From Microcaldota archaeon (GTDB lineage Archaea > Micrarchaeota > Micrarchaeia > Burarchaeales > Fermentimicrarchaeaceae), in the NCBI GenBank assembly GCA_013425335.1, contig JACCLG010000035.1, forward strand, positions 1 to 43,758: a stretch of DNA of 43,758 nucleotides, given 5' to 3'. The position numbers and the translations under genes are program-made. Every line of letters begins with the position of its first letter. Within the stretch, counting starts at the first letter, position 1. A model generated the notes under the pieces. It was not told the origin of the DNA and did no database searches. It worked only from the letters and a program-made list of their open reading frames with translations. Shown here one piece after another: positions 6,729 through 27,035 of the stretch.

Positions 6729-7457
6729 ATGGAGAAGATGAAAACCAACATAAAGGGCCTGGATGTGCTGCTTGGAGGCGGGATTCCTGTACATAACAAT
6801 GTGTTCATATGCGGTGGGCCTGGAACCGGAAAGACCAGCCTCGCCATGGAGTTTCTCTACAGGGGCGCGTTGGAGGGTGACAACGGGCTCTTCCTCTCAC
6901 TGGAGGAGGATACGAATTCGCTTGTAGACAACGCAACTACGACATTCACCAAATGGAACAAATTCAACCAGATGATTAAGGAGAAAAAGCTCATGGTGCT
7001 CACCCAGGAATCGTACATACATGTGGACACGCCCGAGACGGGGGTGAGCCCCTACTACACCTTCAACAAGTTGCAGGATAAGATAAATGAGACAATAGAG
7101 GACAACAAGATAGAGAGGATAGTGGTTGACTCTGCATCAATACTCAACCTATTTTTCACAGACGATTTGGAGTACAGGAGGACTCTGCTGAACCTCCTCA
7201 GAGACCTTAAGAGGAAGGGGTGCACTGCGCTGCTCACTGCGGAACTGCAGAACGTGAACAGGGAAACCGTGAGGTTCGCAATAGAGCACTTCGTTGCCGA
7301 TGGAGTGATACTCTTATACCTCCTGGAGCAGCAGGAGAGGAGGATATCCGCGATGGAGGTTCTGAAGATGAGGGGGAGCGAGCATTCCAAGGTGCTGACC
7401 CCTTTCAAGATAACGCCGAACGGGATTGAGGTTTTCGTGGGCGAGAGGGTCTATTAG
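6729..7457 (+). CDS. KaiC-like RecA-superfamily ATPase
   Basis: TNIKGLDVLLGGGIPVHNNVFICGGPGTGKTSLAMEFLYRG..LFLSLEED; Walker A and KaiC-type acidic pair. Confidence 0.9.
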   Translation: MEKMKTNIKGLDVLLGGGIPVHNNVFICGGPGTGKTSLAMEFLYRGALEGDNGLFLSLEEDTNSLVDNATTTFTKWNKFNQMIKEKKLMVLTQESYIHVDTPETGVSPYYTFNKLQDKINETIEDNKIERIVVDSASILNLFFTDDLEYRRTLLNLLRDLKRKGCTALLTAELQNVNRETVRFAIEHFVADGVILLYLLEQQERRISAMEVLKMRGSEHSKVLTPFKITPNGIEVFVGERVY

Positions 7458-10894: not shown

Positions 10895-12235
10895 ATGGCC
10901 GTTTCACCGTTGGATTTGAGGTACAAAAGCGAGATGAACGCAGTATTCGATGAGGAGAACAGGCTTGCGAAGTGGCTTGCAGTGGAAGGCGCATTGGCAA
11001 AAGCTCAGTCAAGAATCGGCAGGGTGCCCATGAGTGCTGCCAGAGAGATTGAGAAGAAAGCCAATCTCAAATACGTGAAGCTTGAAAGAGTCAAGGAGAT
11101 TGAGAGGGAGATAGACCACGACTTGATGGCAATGGTGAAGGCTCTCAGCGAGGCATGCGGCAAGGATGCCGGGAAATACGTCCACCTTGGGGCTACAAGC
11201 TACGACATCGAGGATACGGCCCATGCGCTGGTGCTGAGGGATGCAATAAAGATTATTGATGTGAAGCTCGCGCATCTCAAGCAGATTCTGCTCGTTCTTA
11301 CTGAGGAGAACAAGACGAGGGTGTGCATAGGCAGAACCCACGGCCAGCATGCCGTTCCAACCACATACGGAATGAAATTCGCCATATACGCAAGCGAGAT
11401 TGACAGGCACCAGACAAGGCTCATGCAGGCCAGGGAGAGGATGATGGTCGGGAAGATGAGCGGCGCTGTCGGGACGATGTCAACATTCGGGAAGGAGGGG
11501 TTCAAAATTCAGGAGTATGTGATGAGGGAGCTTGGTGTTTCACCAGCGCTTATCACAAACCAAGTCGTGCAGAGGGACAGGCACGCTGAAGTTTTGTTTG
11601 TTCTGGCGCTCATCGGCTGCACCCTTGAGAAGATAGCAAAGGAGATAAGGAACCTGCAGAGGACTGAGATAATGGAGATTGCCGAGCCGTTCGGCAGGAA
11701 GCAGGTGGGAAGCTCAACAATGCCGCACAAGAGGAACCCGCACCGATGCGAGAGGATATGCAGCCTTGTGAGGCTGCTCCGGTCAAATGTATCAGTTGCG
11801 CTTGAGAACATTGCACTGGAGCACGAGAGGGACTTGACAAACTCTGCAAACGAGCGCTTTATAATCCCGGAGTCTTTCATAGTTGCGAATTTCATGCTGA
11901 ACGAAATGATAGACATACTTGTCGGGCTGGAGTTCTTCCCTGACAACATAAGGAAGAACATAGAGCTCAGCAAGGGGCAGATAATGGCTGAGAGGCTCAT
12001 GATACTGTTGGCACAGAAGGGGATGAGCAGGCAGGAAGCCCATGAGCTGCTCAGGAACGCCAGCATAAAGGCATTCAAGGAGGGCAAGCATCTCAGGGAG
12101 GCTCTCAGCGAGAACAGGGGGGTTATGCGCTATCTCAGTGAGAAGGAGCTTGAGAATGCATTCGACCCGAATACATACGTTGGGGAGGCTACTGCAATAG
12201 TTGAAAGGGCGCTGAAGGAGCTGAAGAGAGCCTAG
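10895..12235 (+). CDS. purB: Adenylosuccinate lyase
   Basis: SPLDLRYKSEMNAVFDEENRLAKWLAVEGALAKAQ..; fumarase/ASL signature GSSTMPHKRNPHRCE. Confidence 0.95.
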   Translation: MAVSPLDLRYKSEMNAVFDEENRLAKWLAVEGALAKAQSRIGRVPMSAAREIEKKANLKYVKLERVKEIEREIDHDLMAMVKALSEACGKDAGKYVHLGATSYDIEDTAHALVLRDAIKIIDVKLAHLKQILLVLTEENKTRVCIGRTHGQHAVPTTYGMKFAIYASEIDRHQTRLMQARERMMVGKMSGAVGTMSTFGKEGFKIQEYVMRELGVSPALITNQVVQRDRHAEVLFVLALIGCTLEKIAKEIRNLQRTEIMEIAEPFGRKQVGSSTMPHKRNPHRCERICSLVRLLRSNVSVALENIALEHERDLTNSANERFIIPESFIVANFMLNEMIDILVGLEFFPDNIRKNIELSKGQIMAERLMILLAQKGMSRQEAHELLRNASIKAFKEGKHLREALSENRGVMRYLSEKELENAFDPNTYVGEATAIVERALKELKRA

Positions 12236-12265
12236 GAAGCTGCTGTGTGCTGTGCAGGTGGTGGG

Positions 12266-13282
12266 ATGGGCATGGATTATGCAAAATCAGGAGTTGATGT
12301 GGAAAGGGTGAAGGGAATCCATGCACACATAAAAGAGCTCATAACCAAAACGCATGGAAAGGATGTGCTGCCACTCTACGGGCATTATGCTGGCATTGTG
12401 AAAATTGGGAAAGAGACCGTTGCCATGCACACAGACGGGGTGGGAAGCAAGGTGCTCATTGCCCAGTTTCTGAAAAAATACGATACAGTTGGCATAGACT
12501 GCGTCGCAATGAATGTAAACGATATCATATGTGTTGGCGCAAAGCCTGTCGCACTTGTTGATTACATCGCTCTGGAGCACGAGAATGAGGAGCTTGTCTC
12601 CAAACTCATGCAGGGTCTAGTTGAGGGCGCCAGAGAGGCTGAAGTTGCGGTAATTGGAGGGGAAACAGCCATACTCCCTGACATGATAAAGCCTGGCCTG
12701 GATTTCAGCGGGTTCCACACCAACGGCTTTGACCTCGCAGCCACATGCATCGGAGTTGTCGGCAGACAGAGGCTGGTTACCGGGGAGAAGATGAAGACCA
12801 ACGATGTTGTTGTTGGCGTTGAAAGCTCTGGCCTGCACTCCAATGGTTATACTCTTGCAAGAAAAGTTCTTGACATGAATGAGTGGGCCAAGGAGCTGCT
12901 GATACCTACGAGGATATATGTCAAGCCGGTTATGGAATGCCTGAAAAAGGTCAAAGTGCATGGCCTGGCGCACATAACCGGGGGTGCATTCTCCAAGCTG
13001 AGCAGGATTGGGGAAATTGCAAAGAGGGGCTTTCTTCTTGACAACATGCCTAGGCCAAAGCCAATATTTGATGAGCTGAGGAAAAAGGCAGGCTTGAACT
13101 ACGGCGAGATGTACTCCACATTCAACATGGGTGTGGGGTTGTGCGTGGTTGTGGGGAGGGGGGATGCAAAGAAGGTCATCGGCATCTTCGAGCAGCATGG
13201 GCAGAAAGCCTATCCAGTAGGCAGTGTTATAAAAGAAAGGAAAGTCGAAGTCCTGAAAGATGGAGCCTCTTTTGTGCTTTGA
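12266..13282 (+). CDS. purM: Phosphoribosylformylglycinamidine cyclo-ligase (AIR synthetase)
   Basis: MDYAKSGVDVERV..HTDGVGSKVLIAQ..YDTVGIDCVAMNVNDIICVGAKP..IGGETAILPDMIK; RBS GGTGGTGGG before ATG 12266. Confidence 0.94.
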   Translation: MGMDYAKSGVDVERVKGIHAHIKELITKTHGKDVLPLYGHYAGIVKIGKETVAMHTDGVGSKVLIAQFLKKYDTVGIDCVAMNVNDIICVGAKPVALVDYIALEHENEELVSKLMQGLVEGAREAEVAVIGGETAILPDMIKPGLDFSGFHTNGFDLAATCIGVVGRQRLVTGEKMKTNDVVVGVESSGLHSNGYTLARKVLDMNEWAKELLIPTRIYVKPVMECLKKVKVHGLAHITGGAFSKLSRIGEIAKRGFLLDNMPRPKPIFDELRKKAGLNYGEMYSTFNMGVGLCVVVGRGDAKKVIGIFEQHGQKAYPVGSVIKERKVEVLKDGASFVL

Positions 13283-13291
13283 TGCTCATTC

Positions 13292-13609
13292 TTATACCCA
13301 GGGGCAGTCTCCCCCGCTGAGCACATTCACTCCACCGAACATCCTTGCAACTATGTAGAACGCCATCACAAGGATTAATATGCCTGTTATGACATACTCG
13401 AGCCTCTTCTCGGCTTCCTTGTGCTTCATTGGGTCGCTTCCGGATGTCATGAAGCTTATCCCAGCCCAGGAGAGCATCACTATGGCAACGAAGACCCCAA
13501 TCTGCCTCACAAGGGTCACAAGAGGACATAAAGTATTTCTGATGTCCGTGCTTGTATCTGCTGAGACTATGCCTAGCATTAACAACAGCAAAAGTGCCTT
13601 CGCCTTCAT
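13292..13609 (-). CDS. Small exported two-TM protein, VirB2/TrbC pilin-like
   Basis: MKAKALLLLLMLGIVSADTS signal peptide, then two hydrophobic helices separated by SFMTSGSDPMKHKEAEKRLEYV, a VirB2/TrbC-like layout. Confidence 0.55.
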   Translation of the reverse strand: MKAKALLLLLMLGIVSADTSTDIRNTLCPLVTLVRQIGVFVAIVMLSWAGISFMTSGSDPMKHKEAEKRLEYVITGILILVMAFYIVARMFGGVNVLSGGDCPWV

Positions 13610-13683
13610 AATTCCACCCCCATATTATTAGGAGCGTTATATTTAAAAATGGTGTGATTATACCCGATAGGCGGTCGTGCAAA

Positions 13684-13788
13684 TCAACGTCGTTTAGTCG
13701 TCTTTTTCTTTTTTGCCTTCTTCTCCTCTTTCTCAGGCCTCTCGTAGCAGCAGAAAGGGCAGGAGTCGCATTCTGAGTGTTCCTCCAC
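13684..13788 (-). CDS. Possible microprotein with Cys cluster and Lys-rich tail (34 aa)
   Basis: GTG start after AGGTG RBS: MEEHSECDSCPFCCYERPEKEEKKAKKKKTTKRR*. Not in the ORF track. Confidence 0.35.
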   Translation of the reverse strand: MEEHSECDSCPFCCYERPEKEEKKAKKKKTTKRR

Positions 13789-13847
13789 GAAAATCACCTA
13801 GCTATAATTGATGCATAGAAATATATTAAACTTTCGCAGTCTTGCTG

Positions 13848-13922
13848 GAGATGGTAAGAACCCGCCGGAGCTTCTTATGGAAGTCGGAAAAGGTTCAAGG
13901 AAAACCTAGAGGGAACTATCTC
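13848..13922 (+). ncRNA. Candidate structured RNA (three-way junction); strand inferred from TATA-like box
   Basis: GAGATGGT/ACTATCTC outer stem (one G-U), hairpin CCG..CTTC..GAAG..CGG, hairpin AGGTT..AACCT; TATA-like aaatatattaa at 13819-13829; no ORF in this interval in the track. Confidence 0.4.
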
Positions 13923-13976
13923 GGTTGTCCTTAGGGTTTAAATTATTGATATGATATAAAACAAGTTGGTGGACTT

Positions 13977-14825
13977 GTGAAGAAGTACCTGCTTATTTTT
14001 GGCTTGGTTTTGTTAGCGATGCTTCTTTTTGGTTGCATCAAGGAGACGGAACCCGTACTGAATCAGACAACAAACGAAAGCAGCACAGAAACAAATGAAT
14101 CAGTGGTGTTCTTCTTCCCAAAGACTGTTCCCTCGGTTTATGAAGAAGGATTTGGAGTAGTCTACACTGCGAAATGTATAGAAGCTGGCAGAAAGGAGTA
14201 CTATGTGGAATCAATTTGCGGGAGAGAGGGTTACAACGCAACTTGCGTAATCAGAGGGGCTGGTTATGCATCCATGAACGGAACAAAAGGACCATGCGAT
14301 GCAGATGAAGCTGGAAGTATGTGTAGCACCGGCATGTTCAGATACCCCGGACCGCACTTCTATGAAGTTAGGGTATACGACTGCGAGCAGATTCAAAGTG
14401 CGCTAGGAGTTCCCTGCGGCGCAAAGATGAATCACTCATTACTTAATCAGTCATTACTATCTGAGCTTCAGCCATTGTGCCATGGCAAAGTAACATTCAA
14501 CGTAACTGGTGAGTATATAGCTCCTCAATGCATTTTGAATAGTGATTGCAACCAGACATGTGAGAACTGCAGTCGTGGTTTATACCACTGTTTCATGAGA
14601 CGGTGTGTGGAATGTTCCGCAAATGCTTACTGCAAAAAAGGTTATCTCTGCAATATGAGCGAATTTCGATGCGAGGAAAAAATTTCATGCGAAGATTTGG
14701 GTGGCGTGGTTTGCCCACCAGGGGAAGAGGGTGGTTGCGGGTGCATGGGGGGAAATATTTTGTATGAAGCAAAGGAGCGATGCTGCTGTAAGTTTTACTC
14801 AGAAAACGGCTCATGCCTGAAGTGA
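13977..14825 (+). CDS. Cys-rich putative lipoprotein
   Basis: MKKYLLIFGLVLLAMLLFGCIKE lipobox-like leader, many Cys, several N-x-S/T sequons; GTG start with GGTGG upstream. Confidence 0.65.
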   Translation: MKKYLLIFGLVLLAMLLFGCIKETEPVLNQTTNESSTETNESVVFFFPKTVPSVYEEGFGVVYTAKCIEAGRKEYYVESICGREGYNATCVIRGAGYASMNGTKGPCDADEAGSMCSTGMFRYPGPHFYEVRVYDCEQIQSALGVPCGAKMNHSLLNQSLLSELQPLCHGKVTFNVTGEYIAPQCILNSDCNQTCENCSRGLYHCFMRRCVECSANAYCKKGYLCNMSEFRCEEKISCEDLGGVVCPPGEEGGCGCMGGNILYEAKERCCCKFYSENGSCLK

Positions 14826-14852
14826 AATTCATATTCCTACAGACCTCCCCCC

Positions 14853-14970
14853 AAAGCAAGCTTAATATATTTCCTTTTCCCAATGCTATCTCGCCTTAGT
14901 TTGAAGGGCTGGTAGGTTCGTTGGGTTATGATATCATAATTCCACCACCCAACCTACCAAAAGCAAGCTT
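14853..14970. repeat. 11-bp direct repeat AAAGCAAGCTT bracketing an inverted repeat
   Basis: AAAGCAAGCTT at 14853-14863 and 14960-14970; between them GGTAGGTT(cgtt)GGGT...ACCCAACCTACC (14911-14958) containing the palindrome TTATGATATCATAA. Confidence 0.7.
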
Positions 14971-14972
14971 CT

Positions 14973-15002
14973 TATGGGTTTAAATATGAAAAATGAGCAA
15001 TT
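14973..15002 (+). promoter_or_regulatory. Copy A of shared promoter-like module
   Basis: TATGGGTTTAAATATGAAAAATGAGCAATT; 26/30 identical to the copy at 38723. Confidence 0.6.
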
Positions 15003-15095
15003 AATTGGTTTGTTATGCCTCAAGCCACAGTCCAACCTGCAACATTTTAAACTTATACAGATAAATCATATACGGGAGTTTTCTCTGGTCGTTTT

Positions 15096-17297
15096 ATGAA
15101 GAAGCTTAGGTGGATTGAGGAAAAGTGCAAGGCGCCGCAGTGCGACTACTGCACAAGGGTATGCCCCAAGGGAGTGCTCTCCATAGCAGGAAAGGAGCTG
15201 CAGTACTGCACTCAGTGCAACCCGAAGTATGCAGTATGCATGAAGGCGTGCATGAATAATGCTCTTAAGATTGACAAGAACGGCATAATACAGGTGATTC
15301 CCGAGAAATGCGACGGCTGCGGAGCATGCGTCTCAGAATGCAAGACAAGCGGGATAAAGCTGAAGAGAAACAAGAAAGGAATGAAAGTGTCTGTCAAGTG
15401 CGACCTATGCTCCTCCCTAAAGCTCTCCAATCCAATATGCGTGACATTCTGCCCTTATGGAGCTTTAGAGGTCTATGAAGTTGAGGAGGACATTTCAGAG
15501 GCGAAGAAGGAACATGAATCTGAGGAGTTCTACGAGAAAAGGTTTGAGCCGCGTTTCATAGGTGAGGGGAAGGACATCCCGACAATAAGGTACAGGGAGC
15601 CCCTCTCCCCTGAGAGCATAGAGAAAAGATTCTCAGCGCCTTTCTCATTTGCTATATTAGAGTTCCCGCCGCCCGGCAAGGATGCAAGACTGATTGACGA
15701 GTATGGAAGAGTTAAGATATTTGATGTTGACGACCTGGGGAGGATATACTGCATAAGCTTCCCCAAGCTGTTCTCGGATGACTGGAAGCTTGCGGAGTAT
15801 GTGAAGCATTTCACCATAATGAAAATTGCGGATGATTATCTTTCTGCATTCCTGACACCTCCCGAATATTTCAATCTGGAGATGAGGTCGAAGTCCCTCA
15901 ACAAGGTCAAGCTCATCGCGAGGGACATAATAAACAGGTTGGAGCCGACCCTTGACCCTGAGAAGAAGGAGTCAATAGCAGAGATAGTCGCGATTGACAC
16001 AATAGGCTTCGGCGCCGTAGAGTACTTCTGGATGAGGGACAGGGAAAACCTGGAGGAGATAGAGATTGACCACCCCTTGAGGGAGATTCTTGTCTACCAC
16101 AGGAAGCACGGCAGGTGTATAACCAACCTGAGGTTCACCAGCGACAGGTCATTCAAGAAAGTGATGAATGCAATTCTGAGACCTCTTGGAAAATCCCTGG
16201 ATATGATACACCCTGTCGTGGATGCGCAGCTCCCTGACGGCTCAAGGCTTCACGCCCAGATTGCCCCGGCTTCCCTTACAGGCGCAACCGCCAGCATAAG
16301 GCTTTTCGGGAGCGACCCCTGGACGTATACAAAGATAATGAATGCCGGCACAGTTGACGCTGAGCTTGGAGCATTTCTCTGGATGGCTATAGAGCTCAAG
16401 AAATCCCAGATGATAATTACAGGGGCACCTGCAACAGGAAAAACATCATTGCTGTCCTCTCTGCTTGTCTTCATTCCAGCCGGGGAGAGGGTCATATCGG
16501 TTGAGGAGGAGATAAACGAGCTTAGATTTTATGATAAGTTCATAAACTGGATTCCACTCATTGGGGTTTACAAGGAGAGGAAGGATGAGGCAATGAGGAA
16601 AGGCGAGGAAGTTGCGAGGCTCAGGACTTCCCTGGACCAGATAACCAATTCGCTGAGAATGAGGCCCGACAGGATTGTGCTGGGAGAGCTGAGAGGCAGC
16701 GAGGCCATGGAGCTGTTCTCAGGAGCCAACTGGGGCATATCCTTCATGACAACATTGCATTCAAAGGAGGTGGGAACGGCGGTTGTGAAGAGGATACACA
16801 GCCCTCCGATGAAGGTTCCAAGCGACATGCTCTCAATGCTTGACATAATAATAACCCTCTCCACAGACGTCCAGAAGAGGAGGAGGGTAATCCAGTGCTC
16901 AGAAGTGAACTGGCGCTCCAGGGGTGAGATTCCGGACGAGGTTGAAGGCATGCTTAGGAAGGATACAATACCGGCAAAAGTGAGGGGCCAGATCTGGAAA
17001 GAGGGGGAGGAGGTGGGTTTCCTCAACAAGCTCTACGAGTTCAACGAGAAGACGGGCGAACTGGACAGCGTTGGCAAGTACCCTTCAAAAACCCTGAATA
17101 AATACGCCCAGAGCTTCAACCTGACAGAGGAGGAGCTCCGCGACGAGTTCAAGAGGAGGGCGCAGGTGCTGAACTATCTTGCGAAGAACGGCATAACGAA
17201 CTTCTTCGATGTTGGAAAGGTGATTCACGCCTATTACAACACGCCCATGAACAAGAGGGAGGAGTTCATAACGAAGATTAAGAATATCCTGAAGTGA
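15096..17297 (+). CDS. Polyferredoxin-like domain fused to type II/IV secretion (VirB11/TadA-like) ATPase
   Basis: N-term CKAPQCDYCTRVCP, CTQCNPKYAVCMKAC, CDGCGACVSEC, CDLCSSLKLSNPICVTFCP; C-term Walker A GAPATGKTSLL, Walker B-like RIVLGELRGSEAMELF, TTLHSKEVGTAVVKRI. One uninterrupted 733-aa frame. Confidence 0.9.
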   Translation: MKKLRWIEEKCKAPQCDYCTRVCPKGVLSIAGKELQYCTQCNPKYAVCMKACMNNALKIDKNGIIQVIPEKCDGCGACVSECKTSGIKLKRNKKGMKVSVKCDLCSSLKLSNPICVTFCPYGALEVYEVEEDISEAKKEHESEEFYEKRFEPRFIGEGKDIPTIRYREPLSPESIEKRFSAPFSFAILEFPPPGKDARLIDEYGRVKIFDVDDLGRIYCISFPKLFSDDWKLAEYVKHFTIMKIADDYLSAFLTPPEYFNLEMRSKSLNKVKLIARDIINRLEPTLDPEKKESIAEIVAIDTIGFGAVEYFWMRDRENLEEIEIDHPLREILVYHRKHGRCITNLRFTSDRSFKKVMNAILRPLGKSLDMIHPVVDAQLPDGSRLHAQIAPASLTGATASIRLFGSDPWTYTKIMNAGTVDAELGAFLWMAIELKKSQMIITGAPATGKTSLLSSLLVFIPAGERVISVEEEINELRFYDKFINWIPLIGVYKERKDEAMRKGEEVARLRTSLDQITNSLRMRPDRIVLGELRGSEAMELFSGANWGISFMTTLHSKEVGTAVVKRIHSPPMKVPSDMLSMLDIIITLSTDVQKRRRVIQCSEVNWRSRGEIPDEVEGMLRKDTIPAKVRGQIWKEGEEVGFLNKLYEFNEKTGELDSVGKYPSKTLNKYAQSFNLTEEELRDEFKRRAQVLNYLAKNGITNFFDVGKVIHAYYNTPMNKREEFITKIKNILK

Positions 17298-17301
17298 GAG
17301 T

Positions 17302-18165
17302 ATGGATTTTGTTGTTGATTTCTCGGCATTCTGGTCAAAGATTTTCTCAAAGCTCAGCATAAACCCGCAGAGCATAATACGCACGTCAAAGGCAACAAAG
17401 CTCATGATACTCCAGTCAGGCATTGACATCACCCCAGAGGGCTACTCCTCATTTGTGGTTGGGATGGGGCTGAGCTCACTCATGCTCTCGGCACTTTATT
17501 TTTTCCTGATTGCAGCATACTTTCAATTCACCCCGTATCTGGCAGTCTTTCTCTCACTCATAATGCTTTTCGTATCAACATTCATGGCTGTGAGCTACTT
17601 CAATTTTATAGTGCACAGCAGGACGCGGGATGTGGAGCTGAACCTGCTCGACTCCCTGAGGCATCTTCTTTCAGAGCTGCGTTCCGGCATACCGCTGCAT
17701 GACGCCATAGAGTCCATTGCAAGAGAAAACTACGGGGTTGTCTCCGAGCTGTTCAGGCAGAGCCTGGTGAGAATCAAGGAAGGGGATGAGATAAGCGATG
17801 CGTTCATGGAGATTTCCATTAGGACTCCTTCAGTGACATTCCAGAGGTTTGTTGCAACCCTGAGCTATGCCATGGGGAGCGGGGTCAACATAGTGAATGT
17901 GCTTGAGAATTTTATAAGGGAGATTGAGATTTCCAGAAGGAACTCAATATCTATTTATACAAATGAGTCCGTGAAGTATTCCATATTCCTAATATTTATC
18001 ACAGGCATAATACCCGGCCTGCTTGTCCTGCTGCTCTCCCAGGGCTCAATACTCGCCGGCTTCAGGATAGCCATACCTCTGGTGGCGCCGTTCTACCTGC
18101 TGCTCTTCCCGCTTGCAAAATACCTGATAATAATGAGGCTGGTGGGCATATCCCCCTGGGGCTGA
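17302..18165 (+). CDS. TadC/GspF/ArlJ-like pilus or secretion platform membrane protein
   Basis: LNLLDSLRHLLSELRSGIPLHDAIESIARENYGVVSELFRQSLVRIKEGDEISDAF, T2SSF-type domain with flanking TM helices; 4 bp after the ATPase. Confidence 0.85.
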   Translation: MDFVVDFSAFWSKIFSKLSINPQSIIRTSKATKLMILQSGIDITPEGYSSFVVGMGLSSLMLSALYFFLIAAYFQFTPYLAVFLSLIMLFVSTFMAVSYFNFIVHSRTRDVELNLLDSLRHLLSELRSGIPLHDAIESIARENYGVVSELFRQSLVRIKEGDEISDAFMEISIRTPSVTFQRFVATLSYAMGSGVNIVNVLENFIREIEISRRNSISIYTNESVKYSIFLIFITGIIPGLLVLLLSQGSILAGFRIAIPLVAPFYLLLFPLAKYLIIMRLVGISPWG

Positions 18166-18174
18166 GGTGATTGC

Positions 18175-18786
18175 ATGCTGTCTCTGGATGAGGGGAAGTA
18201 CCTGATAAAGCTTGCAAGGAAGGCTGTTGAGGAGTATCTGGGTAAAAGAGTCGCCATAGAGCCGGATAATCCTCCATCATCACTCCTTGAGAAGAGAGGG
18301 ATTTTCGTAACAATTGAAACCTACCCGGGGAAGGAGCTGAGGGGATGCATAGGCTACCCCTATCCTGTCAAGGAGCTCGCCCAATCGGTTGTTGACTGCG
18401 CAATAAGCTCTGCCACGGGAGACCCCAGGTTTCCCGGGATGAGCAGGAAGGAGCTTGATGCATGCACCATTGAGATAAGCGTGCTCACTGTGCCGGAAGT
18501 GATAAACGTCAAGGACCAGAAGGAATACCCCAAATGCATAAAGGTTGGAAAGGACGGGTTGATTGTTGAATACGGCTATTACTCGGGGCTGCTTCTCCCC
18601 ATAGTGCCTGTGGAGCAGAAATGGGATGAGGAGGAGTTCCTCTCGCAGACGTGCTGCAAGGCGGGGATGCCTGTTGACATGTGGCTCAGCCCCAAAGTTA
18701 AAATTTATAAGTTCCAGAGCCAGGTCTTCAAGGAGGAGAAGCCATGCGGAAAAATAGTTGAGGTTGAGCTTGAGGTGAAAAAATGA
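18175..18786 (+). CDS. AMMECR1-domain protein
   Basis: GIFVTIETYPGKELRGCIGYPYPVKELAQSVVDCAISSATGDPRF..EISVLTVPE. Confidence 0.92.
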   Translation: MLSLDEGKYLIKLARKAVEEYLGKRVAIEPDNPPSSLLEKRGIFVTIETYPGKELRGCIGYPYPVKELAQSVVDCAISSATGDPRFPGMSRKELDACTIEISVLTVPEVINVKDQKEYPKCIKVGKDGLIVEYGYYSGLLLPIVPVEQKWDEEEFLSQTCCKAGMPVDMWLSPKVKIYKFQSQVFKEEKPCGKIVEVELEVKK

Positions 18787-19169
18787 TTGAGAATGTGCCG
18801 AAGGAGTATCTGGATGACATACTGGATACGGTGCCGTTTGAATTGTCGTTTATAGACGCCAATGAAACTGTCAGATATTTCAATAAGGAGGGAAGGAGGG
18901 AGATTTTCCAGAGGCCCGCGTCAGTTGTAGGGAGAAGCGTCCAGAAGTGCCATCCCGAGAAGAGCCTTGCCGCGGTGAACAGGATACTCTTTGAATTCAG
19001 GAGCGGGAAGAGGGATTCCGCGGAGTTCTGGGTTGATTTGAATGGAAAGAAAATTTACATAAGATACTTCGCAGTGAGGAGCAGGAAAGGGGAGTACAGG
19101 GGCTGCATAGAAGTGACGCAGGATATAACAGGGATACAGAAAATAAGCGGCGAGAAGAGGCTCCTGTGA
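18783..19169 (+). CDS. PAS-domain protein (DUF438 C-terminal-like)
   Basis: DTVPFELSFIDANETVRYFNKEGRREIFQRPASVVGRSVQKCHPEKSLAAVNRIL; ATGA overlap with the upstream gene. Confidence 0.83.
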   Translation: MIENVPKEYLDDILDTVPFELSFIDANETVRYFNKEGRREIFQRPASVVGRSVQKCHPEKSLAAVNRILFEFRSGKRDSAEFWVDLNGKKIYIRYFAVRSRKGEYRGCIEVTQDITGIQKISGEKRLL

Positions 19170-19594
19170 TGCTTGAGGAATACAAGAAGAAGAGGAATTT
19201 TTCAAAAAGCCCTGAGCCAGCTGGCGAGAGTAAGGAAGCTGGGGGAATTTTTGTAGTCCAGGAGCACCAGGCTTCACACTGGCACCATGATTTCAGGCTG
19301 GAGAAGGACGGGGTGCTGAAGAGCTGGGCCGTGCCAAAAGGATTTCCTGAAGGCGATGAGAAGAGGCTTGCGGTTCCAACAGAGGACCATCCTATTGACT
19401 ATGCCGATTTTGAAGGCGTAATACCCAAGGGCAAGTATGGGGCGGGCACTGTAAAAATTTACGATAAGGGAAAGGCAAAAGTGAAGCTGTGGGAGAATGA
19501 CAAGATTGAGTTTGAGCTTGAGGGAAAGAAACTGAAAGGTTCCTACGTGATGATTAGGACAAAGATGGGCTGGCTTATTTTCAGGAAGAAGTGA
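19169..19594 (+). CDS. Stand-alone LigD-type DNA 3'-phosphoesterase (PE) domain
   Basis: FVVQEHQASHWHHDFRLEKDGVLKSWAVPKGFP..DYADFEGVIPKGKYGAGTVKIYDKG. Confidence 0.9.
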   Translation: MLEEYKKKRNFSKSPEPAGESKEAGGIFVVQEHQASHWHHDFRLEKDGVLKSWAVPKGFPEGDEKRLAVPTEDHPIDYADFEGVIPKGKYGAGTVKIYDKGKAKVKLWENDKIEFELEGKKLKGSYVMIRTKMGWLIFRKK

Positions 19595-19596
19595 TG

Positions 19597-20010
19597 TCAG
19601 CAAGCCGAAACTGCCCCGTTCCCAACCAGCATGCTAATCAAGATTGGCAGTATCACCGCCAATACTATGCAGGCAACAGCGGCTACAGGGACCAGAATTG
19701 CGACAACCAGGCTGAACAGACCGACTTTAAGGCTTGCCGGCAAGCTTTTGAGATTCCTCCACTCAACCTTTCCATTGGGGTTGCCATTCCTGTATACTAA
19801 ATAGCTAAGCACTGCAATTACAGATCCGAGCCCAAAGGCAAACGGGGTTACGAGAAACAGCAACAGCGCTATTGTCGGGAGTACCCCCACTACCAGAATT
19901 TTAAAGCTGCACAAAGCGCCTCCCGTTCCGCTATTCGTTGCCGCGCTTGCCGAAGCAGTTAAAGCGCATAGGAGCAGGCACAGAGCTACATTAAGTTTTG
20001 AGTTAAGCAT
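19597..20010 (-). CDS. Small multi-TM exported protein, possibly pilin-like
   Basis: Signal peptide MLNSKLNVALCLLLCALTASASA followed by several hydrophobic helices. Confidence 0.5.
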   Translation of the reverse strand: MLNSKLNVALCLLLCALTASASAATNSGTGGALCSFKILVVGVLPTIALLLFLVTPFAFGLGSVIAVLSYLVYRNGNPNGKVEWRNLKSLPASLKVGLFSLVVAILVPVAAVACIVLAVILPILISMLVGNGAVSAC

Positions 20011-20103
20011 TCAATCACACTATATATACGCATGTGGAATATAAGTATTACGAAGCGTAAATCTCTTATTAATTCGTGCAGTATAACATACGGAGGCGAG
20101 TTT

Positions 20104-20478
20104 ATGGCTGATGTCACAGGCAAGTTTTTCGGAGCTGGAAGGAAGAACAACAGGAACTGGGTTGCTGTTGATGTTGATGAGGAGAGGATTTTCTTCACAT
20201 ACCCAAAGGAGTTTCCCGTAGAAGTGAAGAAGCTCAGGAGGGGCAGCCAGGTCACTGTAGAATATGACGAAGTGACAAGGGAGATAAGCTCCATAGTAGT
20301 GATAAGCGAGGCAGAGGTCGCAAAGGACAAGTACGACAGGTACAGGGCGTACCAGATAAAGCTGTTGAAGGAATGCCTGGAGGATTCCGCAAAGATAAGC
20401 AAGGACAAGGAAGATGCGAAGTTAATTGCATTCGCATTGTTTGAGAAGAGATGCACTCCACTAGCTTACTTTGGATGA
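20104..20478 (+). CDS. Conserved-looking hypothetical cytosolic protein
   Basis: MADVTGKFFGAGRKNNRNWVAVDVDEERIFFTYPKEF...; ATG after GGAGGCG at 20094. Confidence 0.6.
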   Translation: MADVTGKFFGAGRKNNRNWVAVDVDEERIFFTYPKEFPVEVKKLRRGSQVTVEYDEVTREISSIVVISEAEVAKDKYDRYRAYQIKLLKECLEDSAKISKDKEDAKLIAFALFEKRCTPLAYFG

Positions 20479-20508
20479 GTACAGAAGGCTTAGATTAAAC
20501 TGCGGGTA

Positions 20509-21306
20509 TTGAGGAAGGAGGGTGATGCAATAGTCCGAGTCTACAGGGTTGGGGATAACCTGGCATGCATACTCCCAAATGGGATGGTCGAGAAGCTCAA
20601 GCTCCAGGGAGGGGAAGAAGTCGATTTCTACGAGATAAAGCCAGGGATGTTCACGCTTGTGAAGAAGGACACTGTAGAGAGGATGCTGAAGGATGAGATT
20701 GGAGAGGTTGCGCTCCCTGAGGAAAAGAAAGGGGTGGGCATGGAGGAGATGGGGCTGCTCAGGAAGCTCAACAGCATAAAATTCTCTGAGAGGATACCCT
20801 ATACTGTTAACAAGAAGCTCAGCCAGAGGGAGAAGGAAGTTCTCTCAAAGCTCATTGAAAGAGGAGCGGTGCTCGTCTACAAGGGAGGCAAGTACTCAAA
20901 GACCGGAGTATACGAAATATCAAACAACGTGTACACTCTTCTCAAGAGCGAAAAGCCGGAAGTAGAGGGAGGAACTCCGGAGGAGCAGCTTGAGAAGAAA
21001 GGCTATGCAGTTGTTGAGGATGCGAGGGATGCAGAAGAACTCTGCAAGAAGTTTGACAGGGAGATAAGGAGCGGGGATATAATCGGGACAAGGGGTTTTG
21101 ACAAGAGGTTCTATGTCGCGAAGAGGAGCTGGTTCACATCCCTCTTTGAGAAGGTCAGGCAGAGCATGAGGAAGGGCGCGAATAACATAGCAGATATAAG
21201 CAGGGAGCTGAAGATAAGCGAGCCTGCCTGTGCTGTAATTCTTGAGATAATGAAGGATAAGGGAGATGCCATAGAGAAGAGGAGAGGCTGCTACGGGTTG
21301 GTGTAA
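20509..21306 (+). CDS. Hypothetical protein with AbrB/SpoVT-like N-term and winged-helix-like C-term
   Basis: VYRVGDNLACILPNGMVEKLKLQGGEEVDFYEI (AbrB-like) and ANNIADISRELKISEPACAVILEIMKDKG (wHTH-like). Confidence 0.55.
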   Translation: MRKEGDAIVRVYRVGDNLACILPNGMVEKLKLQGGEEVDFYEIKPGMFTLVKKDTVERMLKDEIGEVALPEEKKGVGMEEMGLLRKLNSIKFSERIPYTVNKKLSQREKEVLSKLIERGAVLVYKGGKYSKTGVYEISNNVYTLLKSEKPEVEGGTPEEQLEKKGYAVVEDARDAEELCKKFDREIRSGDIIGTRGFDKRFYVAKRSWFTSLFEKVRQSMRKGANNIADISRELKISEPACAVILEIMKDKGDAIEKRRGCYGLV

Positions 21307-22478
21307 TGCACGTGATAAAGGATGCGGTTCATGGCGACATACAAGTCAGCGATGCCGAGCTGAAGCTCATAGACACTCCTGAGATGCAAAAGCTGAGGGA
21401 GATAAGGCAGATGGCTGTTGCCTATCTTGTTTACCCCGGGGCGAACCACACTAGGTTTGAGCATTCCCTTGGCACAATGCACATAACAGGGCAGATATGC
21501 GAGAACCTCTCTCTTTCAGAAGAGGAGAAGAAGACAATGAGGGCGGCTGCGCTGCTTCATGATGTAGGCCATACTGCCTTTTCCCATGAGAGCGAGGGAA
21601 TCCTCATAAGGAAGAGGAAGGGCAACCATGAGGAGAGGGGAATTGAGAAAATCAGAAATGGGATGAGCGGTGAGGTGCTTGAGGAGAATGGCTATGATGT
21701 TGAAGAGGTTTGCTCAATCATTGCGGGGAGGGGAAGCAACGGGATAATAAACTTTGCGCTTGGCTCCGACAGGATGGATTACCTGCTGAGAGATTCCCAC
21801 TACACCGGAGTAGCATACGGGGTGATAGACTGCGGAAGGCTGGTGCACACCATAAGGCTCAAGGGTGGCAGGGCGGTTATCGAGTGGGGCGGGATTGAGG
21901 CAGCGGAATCGCTTCTCATAGCCAGGTTCCTCATGTTCTCATCAGTTTATTATCATCATGCAGTAAGGATTGCCAGCGCCATGCTGGGCAGGGCGGTTGA
22001 GTTCGCCCTTGAGGATAAAACCATTTCAGTGGATGAACTGCTGCGCTGCAATGATGCCGAGCTCGGGGCTGCCCTTGAGAATGGTGAGAGGAGCGGGGAG
22101 CTGATGAGGAGGATAAGGAACAGGGAATTGTACAAGAGGGCATACGAGCTTGAGTTCTACAGGCTCAACAAGAGAGGAAAGGAGCTCTTCAAGAGCCATC
22201 ATGAGATAGAGGAAGCCGAGGAGAGGATTAGGGAGAAGAGCGGTGTTGAGGATATCATTCTGGAGTGCAGGCCTGGCTATGATGAGAAATTCGGGGAGAG
22301 CCGGGTCATCATATTGAAAGATTCGAAGGAATACCCGCTTGAGAGCCTCTCCGACATAGTGGGGGCAATAAAGAGGACTGAGGAGATGAGAAGAAGGGCG
22401 ATAGTTGCCTGCCCCAGGGAGGATAGGAAGAGGGTCGCCTCGGCATGCGAGAGTTTCTTCAAGAAGTTTATAGGTTGA
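21306..22478 (+). CDS. HD-domain phosphohydrolase (dGTPase/SAMHD1-like)
   Basis: VIKDAVHGDIQVSDAELKLIDTPEMQKLREIRQ..HTRFEHSLGTMH..AALLHDVGHTAFSH..GSDRMDYLLRDSHYTGV. Confidence 0.92.
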   Translation: MHVIKDAVHGDIQVSDAELKLIDTPEMQKLREIRQMAVAYLVYPGANHTRFEHSLGTMHITGQICENLSLSEEEKKTMRAAALLHDVGHTAFSHESEGILIRKRKGNHEERGIEKIRNGMSGEVLEENGYDVEEVCSIIAGRGSNGIINFALGSDRMDYLLRDSHYTGVAYGVIDCGRLVHTIRLKGGRAVIEWGGIEAAESLLIARFLMFSSVYYHHAVRIASAMLGRAVEFALEDKTISVDELLRCNDAELGAALENGERSGELMRRIRNRELYKRAYELEFYRLNKRGKELFKSHHEIEEAEERIREKSGVEDIILECRPGYDEKFGESRVIILKDSKEYPLESLSDIVGAIKRTEEMRRRAIVACPREDRKRVASACESFFKKFIG

Positions 22479-22526
22479 CACTCTCCATGATTGAAATCAG
22501 GTGCTTTTAATCCTTATACTTGGTAA

Positions 22527-22679
22527 TCAGAAGAAGTAGCCCAGAAGCTTCACTACAATTATGAACAGCACTGTGAAGATGACCACCGCACGAGGGTCGA
22601 GCTGGGGGCCTCCTGCAGTCACATCATAGAAGCGCATCAAGCCAGTTGAGCTCTGCGGCGCGCTCACTCTTTCTGCCAT
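22527..22679 (-). CDS. Preprotein translocase subunit Sec61beta/SecG
   Basis: MAERVSAPQSSTGLMRFYDVTAGGPQLDPRAVVIFTVLFIIVVKLLGYFF (50 aa); inside a longer ORF in the track. Confidence 0.85.
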   Translation of the reverse strand: MAERVSAPQSSTGLMRFYDVTAGGPQLDPRAVVIFTVLFIIVVKLLGYFF

Positions 22680-22719
22680 AGCAACGTATTTAATCTTTGC
22701 AATTTTTAATATTTGCGGT

Positions 22720-24060
22720 ATGGTGAACATCTTATTTGGCACTTCGGGCATACGGGGAGTGGTGAATGAGGGTATCACGCCTGAGCTAGCTCTGATTCTT
22801 GGGAGAGTCATCGTGAAAAAGAGAGGTGCCAGGATAGCCATAGGGAGGGATACGAGGCTGTCCGGTCCGATTCTTGAGGAAGCGCTCGTTGCAGGAATCA
22901 ACTCCTCTGGAGGATGCGCCATCAAGCTGGGTGTTGTTTCAACCCCAACGGTTGCAATAGCGACCAGGGAGAGGGCGGAAAGGGGGGTCATGATTACTGC
23001 GTCGCACAACCCTCCGCAGTACAACGGCTTCAAGCTTTACAACAGATTCGGCGAGGAGATGAGCAGGGATGAGGAGAAGGCGGTGGAAAGTGCCCTGGCA
23101 ACAAATAAGTTCGGTCCGTTTGAGCCAGACGGAACCTGCGGGTCATACAACGTGGAGGATGCGGTTGAGAGGCATATGGAGATTGCCCTGGGGCTCACCG
23201 ACTTGAAGGCAATTGGGAGAAGGAAGCCCACTGTGGTTGTTGACTGCGGAAACGGAGCTGCATGCTCAATAGCGCCGTTCCTGCTCAAAAAGGCTGGATG
23301 CAGGGTCATCTCGGTGAATGCAGAGCCCAGCGGGGTTTTCTCAAGGGTTCTTGAGCCAAACAGAGAGAGTCTGGAGGATGCGTGCTCTCTGGTGAGAAGC
23401 TCCGGAGCCGATATGGGAGTGGGTTATGACGGGGATGGCGACAGGGCGGTTGTCATAGACGAGAGCGGAGAAGTGCTGGGGCTTGATGAGCAGCTCTCCC
23501 TTCTCTCAAGTCATATTGCCAGGAACGGCGGAACAGTGGTGTCAACAGTTGAGGCATCGCTTGCTGTGAGGGAGGCCGTTGAGAAAAATGGGGGAAAGCT
23601 TATAACAACAGAAGTGGGCAGCAGGAATGTTGCTGAGGCAATAAGGGCAAACGGCGCAGTTTTTGGCGGAGAGCCGTGCGGCGAGTACATATTCCCTGAG
23701 GAAGTCCTGTCACCAGACGGAATGCTGGCTACTCTGAAGTTTGTGGAGCTGCTATGCAAAGAAGGCAGGCTGGGAAAACTGAGGAAAAATGTGAAAAAAT
23801 ATCCAATAAAGAGGGCGAAGTTCAGCTGCTCTGACAGGAAAGCTGCAATGGAGAGGATAAAGGGGATTGTCACAAGGGAATTCCGGGGAGAGGTTAATGA
23901 AAGCGATGGGGTGAGGGTGGACTTCAGCGGGGGATGGCTGCTTGTCAGGGCATCCGGCACAGAGCCAATAATAAGGATAACCTGCGAGCACAGGAACAAA
24001 AACGAGCTTGAGAAGGTTTTCAGCAAGGCTGAGAGAATTGTGAAGGAGGGGGTGCAATGA
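22720..24060 (+). CDS. glmM: Phosphoglucosamine mutase / phosphohexomutase
   Basis: LFGTSGIRGVVNE..VMITASHNPPQYNGFKLYN..GVGYDGDGDRAVVID..RASGTEPIIRI. Confidence 0.92.
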   Translation: MVNILFGTSGIRGVVNEGITPELALILGRVIVKKRGARIAIGRDTRLSGPILEEALVAGINSSGGCAIKLGVVSTPTVAIATRERAERGVMITASHNPPQYNGFKLYNRFGEEMSRDEEKAVESALATNKFGPFEPDGTCGSYNVEDAVERHMEIALGLTDLKAIGRRKPTVVVDCGNGAACSIAPFLLKKAGCRVISVNAEPSGVFSRVLEPNRESLEDACSLVRSSGADMGVGYDGDGDRAVVIDESGEVLGLDEQLSLLSSHIARNGGTVVSTVEASLAVREAVEKNGGKLITTEVGSRNVAEAIRANGAVFGGEPCGEYIFPEEVLSPDGMLATLKFVELLCKEGRLGKLRKNVKKYPIKRAKFSCSDRKAAMERIKGIVTREFRGEVNESDGVRVDFSGGWLLVRASGTEPIIRITCEHRNKNELEKVFSKAERIVKEGVQ

Positions 24061-25301
24061 AGGGAGTTGTCATAGCCGCTGGCGAGGGCAAGAGGCTGAA
24101 GCCTCTTACGCACACGAGACCAAAATGCATGATACCTGTTGCCGGCAAGCCGATTCTTGGTCATGTGCTGGAAAGCTTGAAGGGAGCGGGGATAAGGGAT
24201 GCTGTTGTTGTTGTGAATTACCTGAAGGACAAAATAATTGATGAGTTCGGCGATGGAAGAAAAGTTGGGATGAGGATTAGGTATGCCGTGCAGAAGGAGA
24301 CAAGAGGAACCGCGGATGCGTTCCTTGCTGCAGAGGGTCTTGTTGATGGCACTTTTGTCGGAATTGCAGGAGATGTTGTTACAGAGAGCAGCGCAATAAG
24401 GAAGCTTATATCATCTCATGACTCGGAGATGACAGTTGGCTTGAAAAGAGTGGAGGATGTGAGCAACTACGGGGCTGCAGAAGTTGCAGGAGGGAAAATC
24501 AGAAAATTCGAGGAGAAGCCAAAAAGCCGCAGGAGCGGTCTTGCGAACTGCAGCATGTACGTGATTGAGAGCAGCGCGTTCACAAAGCTCAAATCCCTGA
24601 AGATGTCAAAGAGGGGCGAGTATGAGATTACCGACCTTATAAAGGCGCTTGCAAAAAAGGGCGAGGTGAGGGGAGTTGAACTCAAGGAGTTCTGGCAGGA
24701 TTTGGGGATGCCATGGCAGCTCTTTGACGCAAATGAGTTCCTGCTCAACAAAATGCCTGAGAAGAGGGAGGGGAAGCTTGAGGACTGCAAGGTGAAGGGC
24801 AAGGTCGTCATAGAGAAGGGAGCTCATGCCTTCAACAGCTTCATTGAGGGGCCTGTTTTCATAGGCAGGAACAGCGAGGTTGGACCTTACTCCTTCATAA
24901 GGAGCAATACGAGCATTGGGGAGAACTGCGGGATAGGGGATTCCACAACTGTGAAGAACAGTATAATAATGAACCACGTAAATGCCAAGCATCTCAGCTA
25001 CATAGGCGACAGCATTGTTGGAGAGAACTGCAATTTCGGGGCTGGGACACAGATAGCGAACTGGAGGTTTGATGCGGGCACCATAAAAATGGAGGTTATG
25101 GAAAAAAGTGTTGACACGAAAAGAAACAAGCTTGGAGTTATAATCGGGGACAATACGAAAACTGGGGTGCTTTCATCTGTCATGCCTGGCAGGACTATAG
25201 GCGACAGCTGCTGGATTGGCGCAAATGTGCAGGTTGACAGGGACATACCGCGTTCGACAAGAGTCTTCCTCAAGCAGCATCTTGTTATAGAGGGCAGATA
25301 G
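24057..25301 (+). CDS. GlmU-like sugar-1-phosphate nucleotidylyltransferase with left-handed beta-helix domain
   Basis: MKGVVIAAGEGKRLKPLTHTRPKCMIPVAGKPILGHVLE plus hexapeptide-repeat C-term; ATGA overlap with glmM. Confidence 0.9.
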   Translation: MKGVVIAAGEGKRLKPLTHTRPKCMIPVAGKPILGHVLESLKGAGIRDAVVVVNYLKDKIIDEFGDGRKVGMRIRYAVQKETRGTADAFLAAEGLVDGTFVGIAGDVVTESSAIRKLISSHDSEMTVGLKRVEDVSNYGAAEVAGGKIRKFEEKPKSRRSGLANCSMYVIESSAFTKLKSLKMSKRGEYEITDLIKALAKKGEVRGVELKEFWQDLGMPWQLFDANEFLLNKMPEKREGKLEDCKVKGKVVIEKGAHAFNSFIEGPVFIGRNSEVGPYSFIRSNTSIGENCGIGDSTTVKNSIIMNHVNAKHLSYIGDSIVGENCNFGAGTQIANWRFDAGTIKMEVMEKSVDTKRNKLGVIIGDNTKTGVLSSVMPGRTIGDSCWIGANVQVDRDIPRSTRVFLKQHLVIEGR

Positions 25302-25321
25302 CCGGTGATTAGCTGAATTGG

Positions 25322-26140
25322 TTGATAGTCGGCATTGACCCAGGCACCACCATAGGGTATGCCATATTTGATTTGGACATGAACCCTCTATTGATTGGAA
25401 GCAAGAGGGAGATGAGCAAGGAGGAGCTTGCGGATATGATAAGGAAGAAGGGGAAGCCCTCCCTCCTTGCATGCGACGTCAATCCTGCACCTGATCTTCT
25501 TCTCAAGCTTGCATCCTACTTCAACACAAGAATTTTCATCCCGGAAAAGGACATGGGCGACAGGGAGAAGAGCAAGCTCGTGAAAGGCATGGAGTTCTCC
25601 AATGAGCACGAAATGGATGCCGCAGCTGCTGCGATGAAAGCTTTCAGGTTCTATGAGAACAAGCTGAGGCAGATAGACCGCGTCCTGAAAGAGAAGGGTA
25701 TCTCTGGGAAGGCTGGCGAGATAAAGCACCTTGTGCTGAACAACACATCGCTGAGCAACGCCCTGCTCAGAGTGGATATAGAGCGGGAGATTGAAATGCC
25801 CAAGATAAGGAGCAGGGAGGAAACAAGGATTGACCTGGAGGGCAAGAACAGGCAGATAAAGGAGATACTTGACTCCAGCATTGAGCTGAGGAAAGCGGTG
25901 GAGAGGCTGGAGAGCGAGAACGCCAGCCTCATGGCAAAAATAAGGTTTATGGAAAAAGGCGTTTTTGAGAGGCTTGCCGGGGACAGGGAGATGAGGAAGA
26001 AGGAAATAGAAATCATGAGGCTCAGGCAGGCAACGCGCAGCACAAGAAGCATGAATTTAAAAGAGCCGGCTGCAAAAGAATCAGAGGTGAATCTGGAGGG
26101 GATAATCGGGGATTACAGAAAGAAGCATAAACATTTATAA
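25322..26140 (+). CDS. DUF460-like protein: RNase H/RuvC-fold N-term + coiled coil (short form)
   Basis: [51 protein letters not shown] and a long charged coiled coil. Confidence 0.7.
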
Positions 26141-26198
26141 CTGGCTAGAGAAATACTATTCAAGCATAATCCAACAAACAACAACGGAGGTGCATAAA

Positions 26199-26492
26199 AT
26201 GGCAGAGGAAGCAGCAATACGAAAGGATGAGAATGTGGTCTACATCGGCAAGAAGAGCGTTATGGCCTACGTTCTCGCTGTGATAACCCAGTTCAACAAT
26301 GGTGCGACTGAGGTTGCGATAAAGGCTAGGGGAAAAGTGATTTCTAGAGCGGTGGACGTTGCGGAGATAGTGAGGAACAGATTCATGCCAGACGCAAAGA
26401 TAAAGAGCATAGACATAAAGACCGAGGAGCTCACATCAGAGGACGGAAGCATGGCAAAAGTGTCGGCAATGGAAATAACCCTGATGAAGTAA
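26199..26492 (+). CDS. albA: Chromatin protein Alba
   Basis: [61 protein letters not shown]. Confidence 0.95.
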
Positions 26493-26537
26493 TCTTTTAG
26501 TTTTTTATCATTTCTTTTTCGGCAATGGAGTGGTTAG

Positions 26538-27035
26538 ATGAACGTGCAGATTTGCGAGCTATGCATGAAAAGCAATGTGCTCTGCTCGGGGTGCGATGAT
26601 AAGTTGAAGAAGGGAAAAATCTCCGAGATGGATGTGAAAATAAGCAGGCTGCTGTACAAGCTGAAAGACAAATACAATTTGCAGAATGCTGGTTTCACAA
26701 AGGCTATTGATTTAGGAAGGGTGGTGCTCGTACTGACAAACAAGGATGTCGGCTTACTAATTGGCAGGGAGGGGAAGGTTGTTGCTGAGATATCTCAGGC
26801 TGTTGGGAAGAAGGTGAGGATAGCTGAGATGAGCGGGGATATAAAGAAGACTATAGCAGATATCGTTGCCCCTGCGAAAATACTTGGCATAAACAAGATT
26901 TACAGGAAGGAGGGGAATCTTTACAAGGTGAGGTTCTCAAGAAGGGAGATAAAGCAGCTTCCTGTTGACATCAATACATTGGAGAAAGCTCTCAAATCTC
27001 TTCTCGGGTCTGAAGTTATGATAGTCTTTGAGTAG
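26538..27035 (+). CDS. KH-domain RNA-binding protein with N-terminal CxxC zinc motif
   Basis: ICELCMKSNVLCSGCDDKLKKG; KDVGLLIGREGKVVAEISQAVGKKVRIAEM (KH GxxG). Confidence 0.78.
   Translation: MNVQICELCMKSNVLCSGCDDKLKKGKISEMDVKISRLLYKLKDKYNLQNAGFTKAIDLGRVVLVLTNKDVGLLIGREGKVVAEISQAVGKKVRIAEMSGDIKKTIADIVAPAKILGINKIYRKEGNLYKVRFSRREIKQLPVDINTLEKALKSLLGSEVMIVFE

Follow-up and report, generated by a model that had tools for sequence, protein, structure and literature searches.

Why would the motor of a pilus machine carry a domain with binding sites for four iron-sulfur clusters? The question is raised by a single gene in a 43,758-nucleotide stretch of archaeal DNA, here called the window, in which a four-cluster ferredoxin (Fer) domain precedes an assembly ATPase. 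Few biological motors have been studied as thoroughly as secretion and pilus ATPases. Full-text searches of open-access papers, with most subscription papers and the architecture databases outside their scope, returned no description of an Fe-S secretion or pilus ATPase, and the main text of a census of archaeal type IV pili is without mention of ferredoxins or Fe-S (PMC4858521). The fusion of a Fer domain to a pilus ATPase is apparently undescribed, as the initial annotation, which knew of no characterised precedent, had supposed.

The fusion gene and its motor

The window corresponds to contig C11 in a MAG of Ca. Fermentimicrarchaeum (Micrarchaeota) that measures 1.0 Mb, is incomplete and has a contamination of 2.89%. 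The features considered below are:

15096-17297 (+): fusion gene, four-cluster ferredoxin (Fer) domain plus archaeal type IV pilus-type assembly ATPase, 733 aa
15096-15482 (+): Fer domain, residues 1-129, DmsB/HycB/AorB-like, four predicted [4Fe-4S] sites
15126-15164 (+): Cys motif I (C11, C16, C19, C23)
15207-15251 (+): Cys motif II (C38, C41, C48, C52)
15309-15341 (+): Cys motif III (C72, C75, C78, C82)
15399-15452 (+): Cys motif IV (C102, C105, C115, C119)
15483-15635 (+): linker, residues 130-180, mostly of low confidence in the predicted model
15636-16115 (+): ATPase N-terminal domain, residues 181-340 (bounds approximate)
16116-16925 (+): T2SSE ATPase core, residues 341-610 (bounds approximate)
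16422-16448 (+): Walker A, GAPATGKTS (443-451)
16671-16694 (+): Walker B, RIVLGELR (526-533)
16749-16763 (+): His box, TTLHS (552-556)
16926-17294 (+): C-terminal domain, residues 611-733, the least conserved part within the genus
17302-18165 (+): T2SSF (PilC/FlaJ half, TadB-like) membrane protein, 4 bp 3' of the fusion gene

The reading frame opens with an ATG, whose methionine is conserved in every member of the genus, and runs without an internal stop. Sixteen of the 19 cysteines of the protein lie in four groups inside the first 119 residues, and the probability of at least 16 of 19 landing in residues 1-130 by chance is 2.6e-10. Pfam recognizes Fer4_7, Fer4_6, Fer4_9, Fer4_10 and Fer4, all above their cut-offs, and T2SSE at residues 342-569 (E 6.8e-22, 78.1 bits against a cut-off of 24.9). 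One uninterrupted frame with four cysteine groups and a complete ATPase, including Walker A, Walker B and His box, is what had been read from the DNA initially, and both parts of that description hold. An alternative start yielding the ATPase by itself was rejected, since codons 117-235 contain no ATG, GTG or TTG, and a product of this kind with an intact N-terminal domain is not expected.

Ca. Fermentimicrarchaeum limneticum Sv326, whose chromosome is complete (CP058998.1), encodes the fusion at 85% identity, and the fusion is also found in two Lake Pavin MAGs and in Alinen sediment MAGs. Recurrence in a complete chromosome and in independent MAGs excludes a chimaera or a missed stop, the two outcomes that would have undone the in-frame fusion proposed at the outset. 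A second copy in the same MAG, on contig C52, is 92% identical with synteny over about 16 kb and most likely represents a contig of a sister strain. The C52 contig is syntenic along its whole length with window positions 10895-27035 at roughly 80-92% protein identity. Two Fermentimicrarchaeum strains or species seem to be combined in the MAG, and contigs C18 and C47 may be another such pair.

What kind of motor is it? By fold, the best solved relatives are GspE-2 of A. fulgidus (2OAP) and FlaI, followed by CpaF and VirB11, the matches to GspE-2 and FlaI (2OAP, 4IHQ, 4II7) spanning about 560-590 aligned columns; by sequence, GspE-2 is far in front among solved relatives. The key residues of Walker A, Walker B and the His box are invariant in six homologues. 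The equivalog cut-offs for FlaI (ArlI, NF058587; 156.8 against 550 bits), TadA (TIGR03819; 115.4 against 373.15 bits) and VirB11 (TIGR02788; 100.8 against 249.95 bits) are all missed, which indicates that the motor is a distinct archaeal type IV pilus-type ATPase of the T2SSE/GspE-2/FlaI superfamily. The earlier label of a VirB11/TadA-type ATPase was right in pointing to a type IV pilus-type motor and loose in its choice of relatives. Archaeal GspE-2 and FlaI share with the fusion the T2SSE core, the Walker motifs and His box, the N-terminal domain and a T2SSF partner; their structures, however, contain no Fe-S domain.

The four-cluster domain

To which family does the N-terminal domain belong, and are its clusters real? 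The closest relatives by sequence in the PDB are MvhB, the Fe-S subunits of tungsten aldehyde oxidoreductases and HycB-type proteins, and among NCBIfam models DmsB scores highest, at 38.8 far below its equivalog cut-off of 214. A predicted model of residues 1-140 finds its best fold matches in WOR5-B, AorB, HycB of formate hydrogenlyase and HycB3 of HDCR (Foldseek probability 1.00, E 4e-7 to 1e-6, TM about 0.4, on a model with a pLDDT of 67). The name polyferredoxin given initially captured the four predicted cluster sites, and sequence and, more tentatively, fold argue for the more precise name of a DmsB/HycB/AorB-type four-cluster electron-transfer domain. In ferredoxin domains of this sort the cysteines pair crosswise, such that I1-3 with IV4, IV1-3 with I4, II1-3 with III4 and III1-3 with II4 each hold one cluster. 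The four cysteine groups and the crossover ligation are common to the DmsB/NrfC/HycB/AorB subunits (HycB of E. coli FHL, 7z0s; HDCR HycB3/4, 7qv7; WOR5 subunit B, 6x6u). Whereas these subunits serve a molybdenum or tungsten enzyme or a hydrogenase, the domain in the window is part of a motor protein, and the genes around it encode no enzyme of these kinds; more generally, no redox enzyme that could act as catalytic partner occurs in the Group I ATPase (the type found in the window) or pilin loci examined.

All 16 ligand cysteines are invariant across six homologues with identities down to 47%, and 23 of 32 fusions retain the full set. The exceptions include two pairs of particular value: L056 and L058 are without exactly I1, I2, I3 and IV4, and L187 and L202 without exactly II1, II2, II3 and III4. 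In these two lineages a single ligand set has disappeared in precise agreement with crossover ligation, which is supportive of that pairing without being a structure. Four cysteines drawn at random from 16 would coincide with one of the four sets that crossover predicts at p = 0.0022, and if three adjacent cysteines are taken to go as a block, the matching fourth loss still has a chance of 1 in 13 each time. The Fer domains of L188 and of the genome G005 are reduced to eight cysteines. As the cluster-wise losses follow the crossover prediction, the four Fe-S clusters are almost certainly real, and loss of exactly the sets {I1-3, IV4} and {II1-3, III4} shows that selection has acted on individual clusters. 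Among genus members the Fer domain is 88% identical, above the linker (80%) and the C-terminal domain (70%), and its dN of 0.035-0.071 compares with a dS of 0.74-1.67 (dN/dS about 0.05); the domain is under strong purifying selection.

Distribution and the pilus-like machine

Altogether 33 fusions were found, in 12 of 295 sampled Micrarchaeota genomes, in 14 of 19 Diapherotrites and in three other genomes; the fusion is real and conserved in two groups of tiny archaea. None was seen in 156 Aenigmatarchaeota, 295 Halobacteriota and 200 Thermoproteota genomes, a result that is suggestive only, given strict thresholds and few scored candidates. Two types can be told apart, Group I of about 730 aa and Group II of 450-600 aa and about 30% identity; the genome G006 encodes two of the former and one of the latter. 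In a tree of the ATPase part the fusions fall into two clades (I and II), each mixing members with and without a Fer domain; the tree calls for about nine gains or losses (at least ten as labelled, because L015 is entered as Fer-less, yet its N-terminal half on another contig carries the domain). Sequence comparison favours neither one shared nor two separate acquisitions of the Fer domain by the two clades, as stand-alone ferredoxins score as well as the Fer domain of the other clade.

Three Burarchaeum-type genomes (lineage f6) possess the same Group I machine and a Group II ATPase, neither ATPase with a Fer domain, and no convincing separate ferredoxin gene was found beside these unfused ATPases. 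Persistence of the f6 machine with both paralogues Fer-less indicates that the Fer domain is an accessory outside the motor core, dispensable for the machine and present according to lineage. Every paralogue seen in lineage f1, in turn, carries the domain, though that of G005 has eight cysteines only, so its use appears to track the physiology of the lineage rather than the mechanics of the motor.

Which machine does the ATPase drive? The adjoining T2SSF gene (17302-18165; Pfam E 1.4e-16) forms with the fusion ATPase a pair that is conserved across the genus, the family and f6. In Sv326 four other pilus loci contain two T2SSF halves each and the fusion locus contains one. A second, divergent T2SSF is encoded elsewhere in that chromosome, at 710-715 kb, in the company of six pilin-like genes, which form an operon, and of a short gene for a coiled coil; in the window's own genome the corresponding set of genes is located on contig C35. 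Two of the pilin-like genes give weak Class_IIIsignal matches below the cut-off. The second T2SSF half was detected in 10 of 17 relatives (E < 1e-50), in nine of them alongside a Group I ATPase and in the tenth case in a draft, G001, and in G006 and the f6 genomes the second T2SSF and pilin-like genes adjoin the ATPase. Location elsewhere in the genome combined with co-occurrence with the Group I ATPase points to a split type IV pilus-like system, of which the fusion ATPase is the predicted motor. In G006 a VirB4/TraG-type ATPase with a weak PrgI match (L041:428-3097, minus strand) adjoins a Group I fusion pilus locus.

What the domain could do for the motor

How could Fe-S clusters matter to such a motor? 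The fusion protein would drive assembly in an archaeal type IV pilus-like machine of its own; every subunit would bear an N-terminal domain with four [4Fe-4S] clusters, so that a hexamer, assumed from homologues, would hold about 24. A change in the redox state or cluster occupancy of the Fer domains, set by electron supply, oxygen or iron, would most likely alter the packing of the N-terminal crown or the binding of a partner, and in this way switch pilus assembly on or off. The sequences themselves show the fusion and its conservation, the ligand sets, the other components of the machine and its persistence without the domain in sister lineages; cluster binding in vivo, the hexamer, the position on the crown and the gating are what we infer here. 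That the Fer domain caps the pilus motor as a regulator responsive to redox, iron or oxygen is our main reading, held tentatively at a probability of about 0.45; it retains the redox- or oxygen-gated motor put forward in the initial annotation. Slightly more doubtful is its strongest form, a hexameric ring of up to 24 [4Fe-4S] clusters through which redox, oxygen or iron status switches the motor directly, which would constitute the first redox-gated secretion or pilus ATPase, in two archaeal phyla. Conserved ligands, cluster-wise loss, purifying selection, dispensability in f6 and the lack of a redox enzyme in the loci examined speak for a cap, and the ferredoxin-like domain of archaeal Rpo3, described below, offers a precedent (PMC5300874). 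Against it, four-cluster DmsB-type domains serve as electron wires in solved relatives, not as sensors, and the Fe-S sensors that are known mostly rely on a single labile cluster. Moreover, no gene for an oxygen- or redox-linked regulator adjoins the fusion consistently, the downstream PAS gene being absent at the Sv326 locus, and docking onto the crown is not predicted because confidence in the Fer-region model is low (pLDDT 67 when modelled alone).

Alternatively, the clusters might do no more than stiffen a lever or assembly domain, which would help to form the hexamer or couple the ATPase cycle to a partner, redox being irrelevant. Such a role has a parallel in ABCE1/Rli1, which likewise carries an N-terminal ferredoxin-like domain, with eight cysteines and two clusters, covalently on the ATPase of a machine (PMC4523923), although there it is a twin ABC ATPase active in ribosome recycling and here a T2SSE ATPase. 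Archaeal Rpo3/D provides another accessory, variably present Fe-S domain on a molecular machine, differing in that it has one or two clusters, no ATPase and a function in transcription; its ferredoxin-like domain aids RNAP assembly and is non-essential, cluster number varies among archaea, and, one Lokiarchaeota sequence aside, two clusters occur in strict anaerobes only (PMC5300874). Cluster number in the fusions is likewise variable, from four to three to two. Four clusters are nevertheless costly for a purely structural use and the f6 machine persists with both paralogues lacking the domain, which leaves this explanation unlikely, if worth serious attention. The initial annotation had also considered an electron conduit, in which electrons donated by ferredoxin or hydrogenase in the cytoplasm would pass along the cluster ring towards the membrane or the appendage. 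In its favour are the electron-wire character of the domain and the group 4e [NiFe] hydrogenase of F. limneticum (PMC8561730), but the examined ATPase and pilin loci encode no cytochrome, quinone protein or oxidoreductase, the T2SSF and pilin-like genes suggest no electron acceptor, fusions with three and two clusters persist and the machine also occurs in a form that lacks the domain; a conduit comes out as the weaker reading and is improbable.

It could also be imagined that a separate redox enzyme of the cytoplasm is anchored to the motor through the Fer domain, or the motor to the enzyme, which would bring the enzyme to the membrane or feed electrons into the processing of a pilus component while the motor itself is unchanged. 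DmsB/HycB-type domains normally reside within multi-subunit redox enzymes, and some Group II loci contain an FAD oxidoreductase resembling geranylgeranyl reductase; this gene also occurs where the Fer domain is absent (L174) and none was seen at Group I loci, so that a docking adaptor appears more improbable still. An artefact of assembly, or a relic domain that no longer binds clusters, is scarcely credible: the incompleteness and contamination of the MAG and its 92%-identical C52 copy, probably from the sister strain, would allow for it, but a complete genome and many MAGs share the fusion, dN is far below dS and cysteines are lost as cluster sets. If the clusters of a regulatory cap do gate the motor, surface attachment or the transfer of DNA or protein in these archaea with small genomes would be coupled directly to the supply of electrons or to oxygen. 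Relatives that lack a single defined cluster, a pair of clusters or the domain altogether constitute a natural test set for the roles of Fe-S clusters on machines, with a bearing on ABCE1 and Rpo3.

Several neighbouring genes are recorded here as observations in their own right. Upstream of the fusion gene lies a VirB2/TrbC-like T4SS_pilin gene (13292-13609, minus strand, 105 aa), found on C52 too and absent at the Sv326, G003 and G004 loci; a link to type IV secretion through this gene was discarded, as the upstream neighbourhood is unconserved in G002-G004. It is followed by a cysteine-rich putative lipoprotein of 282 aa (13977-14825, plus strand) with a lipobox-like LFGC, a C-terminal cysteine cluster and no Pfam match. 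On the 3' side of the ATPase-T2SSF pair, 18175-19594 (plus strand) encodes AMMECR1, a small PAS_10 protein and a stand-alone LigD 3'-phosphoesterase, a run kept in G003, with PAS and LigD absent at the Sv326 locus. Group II loci (L172, L171, L174) have an FAD oxidoreductase (GGR-like), UppS and often DUF192 upstream of the ATPase; a connection of these genes with the Group II Fer domain was dismissed, since the same genes stand at a Fer-less locus and are not Fer-specific. At Diapherotrites loci, for example L060, a PAC2 gene lies 3' of the ATPase. Farther off in the window, a single-domain KaiC-like ATPase, whose superfamily includes the archaellum protein FlaH, is encoded about 8 kb upstream of the fusion (6729-7457, plus strand), and a ThiD-ThiN fusion of phosphomethylpyrimidine kinase and thiamine-phosphate synthase (33500-34861, plus strand) fits the thiamine synthesis reported for the genus.
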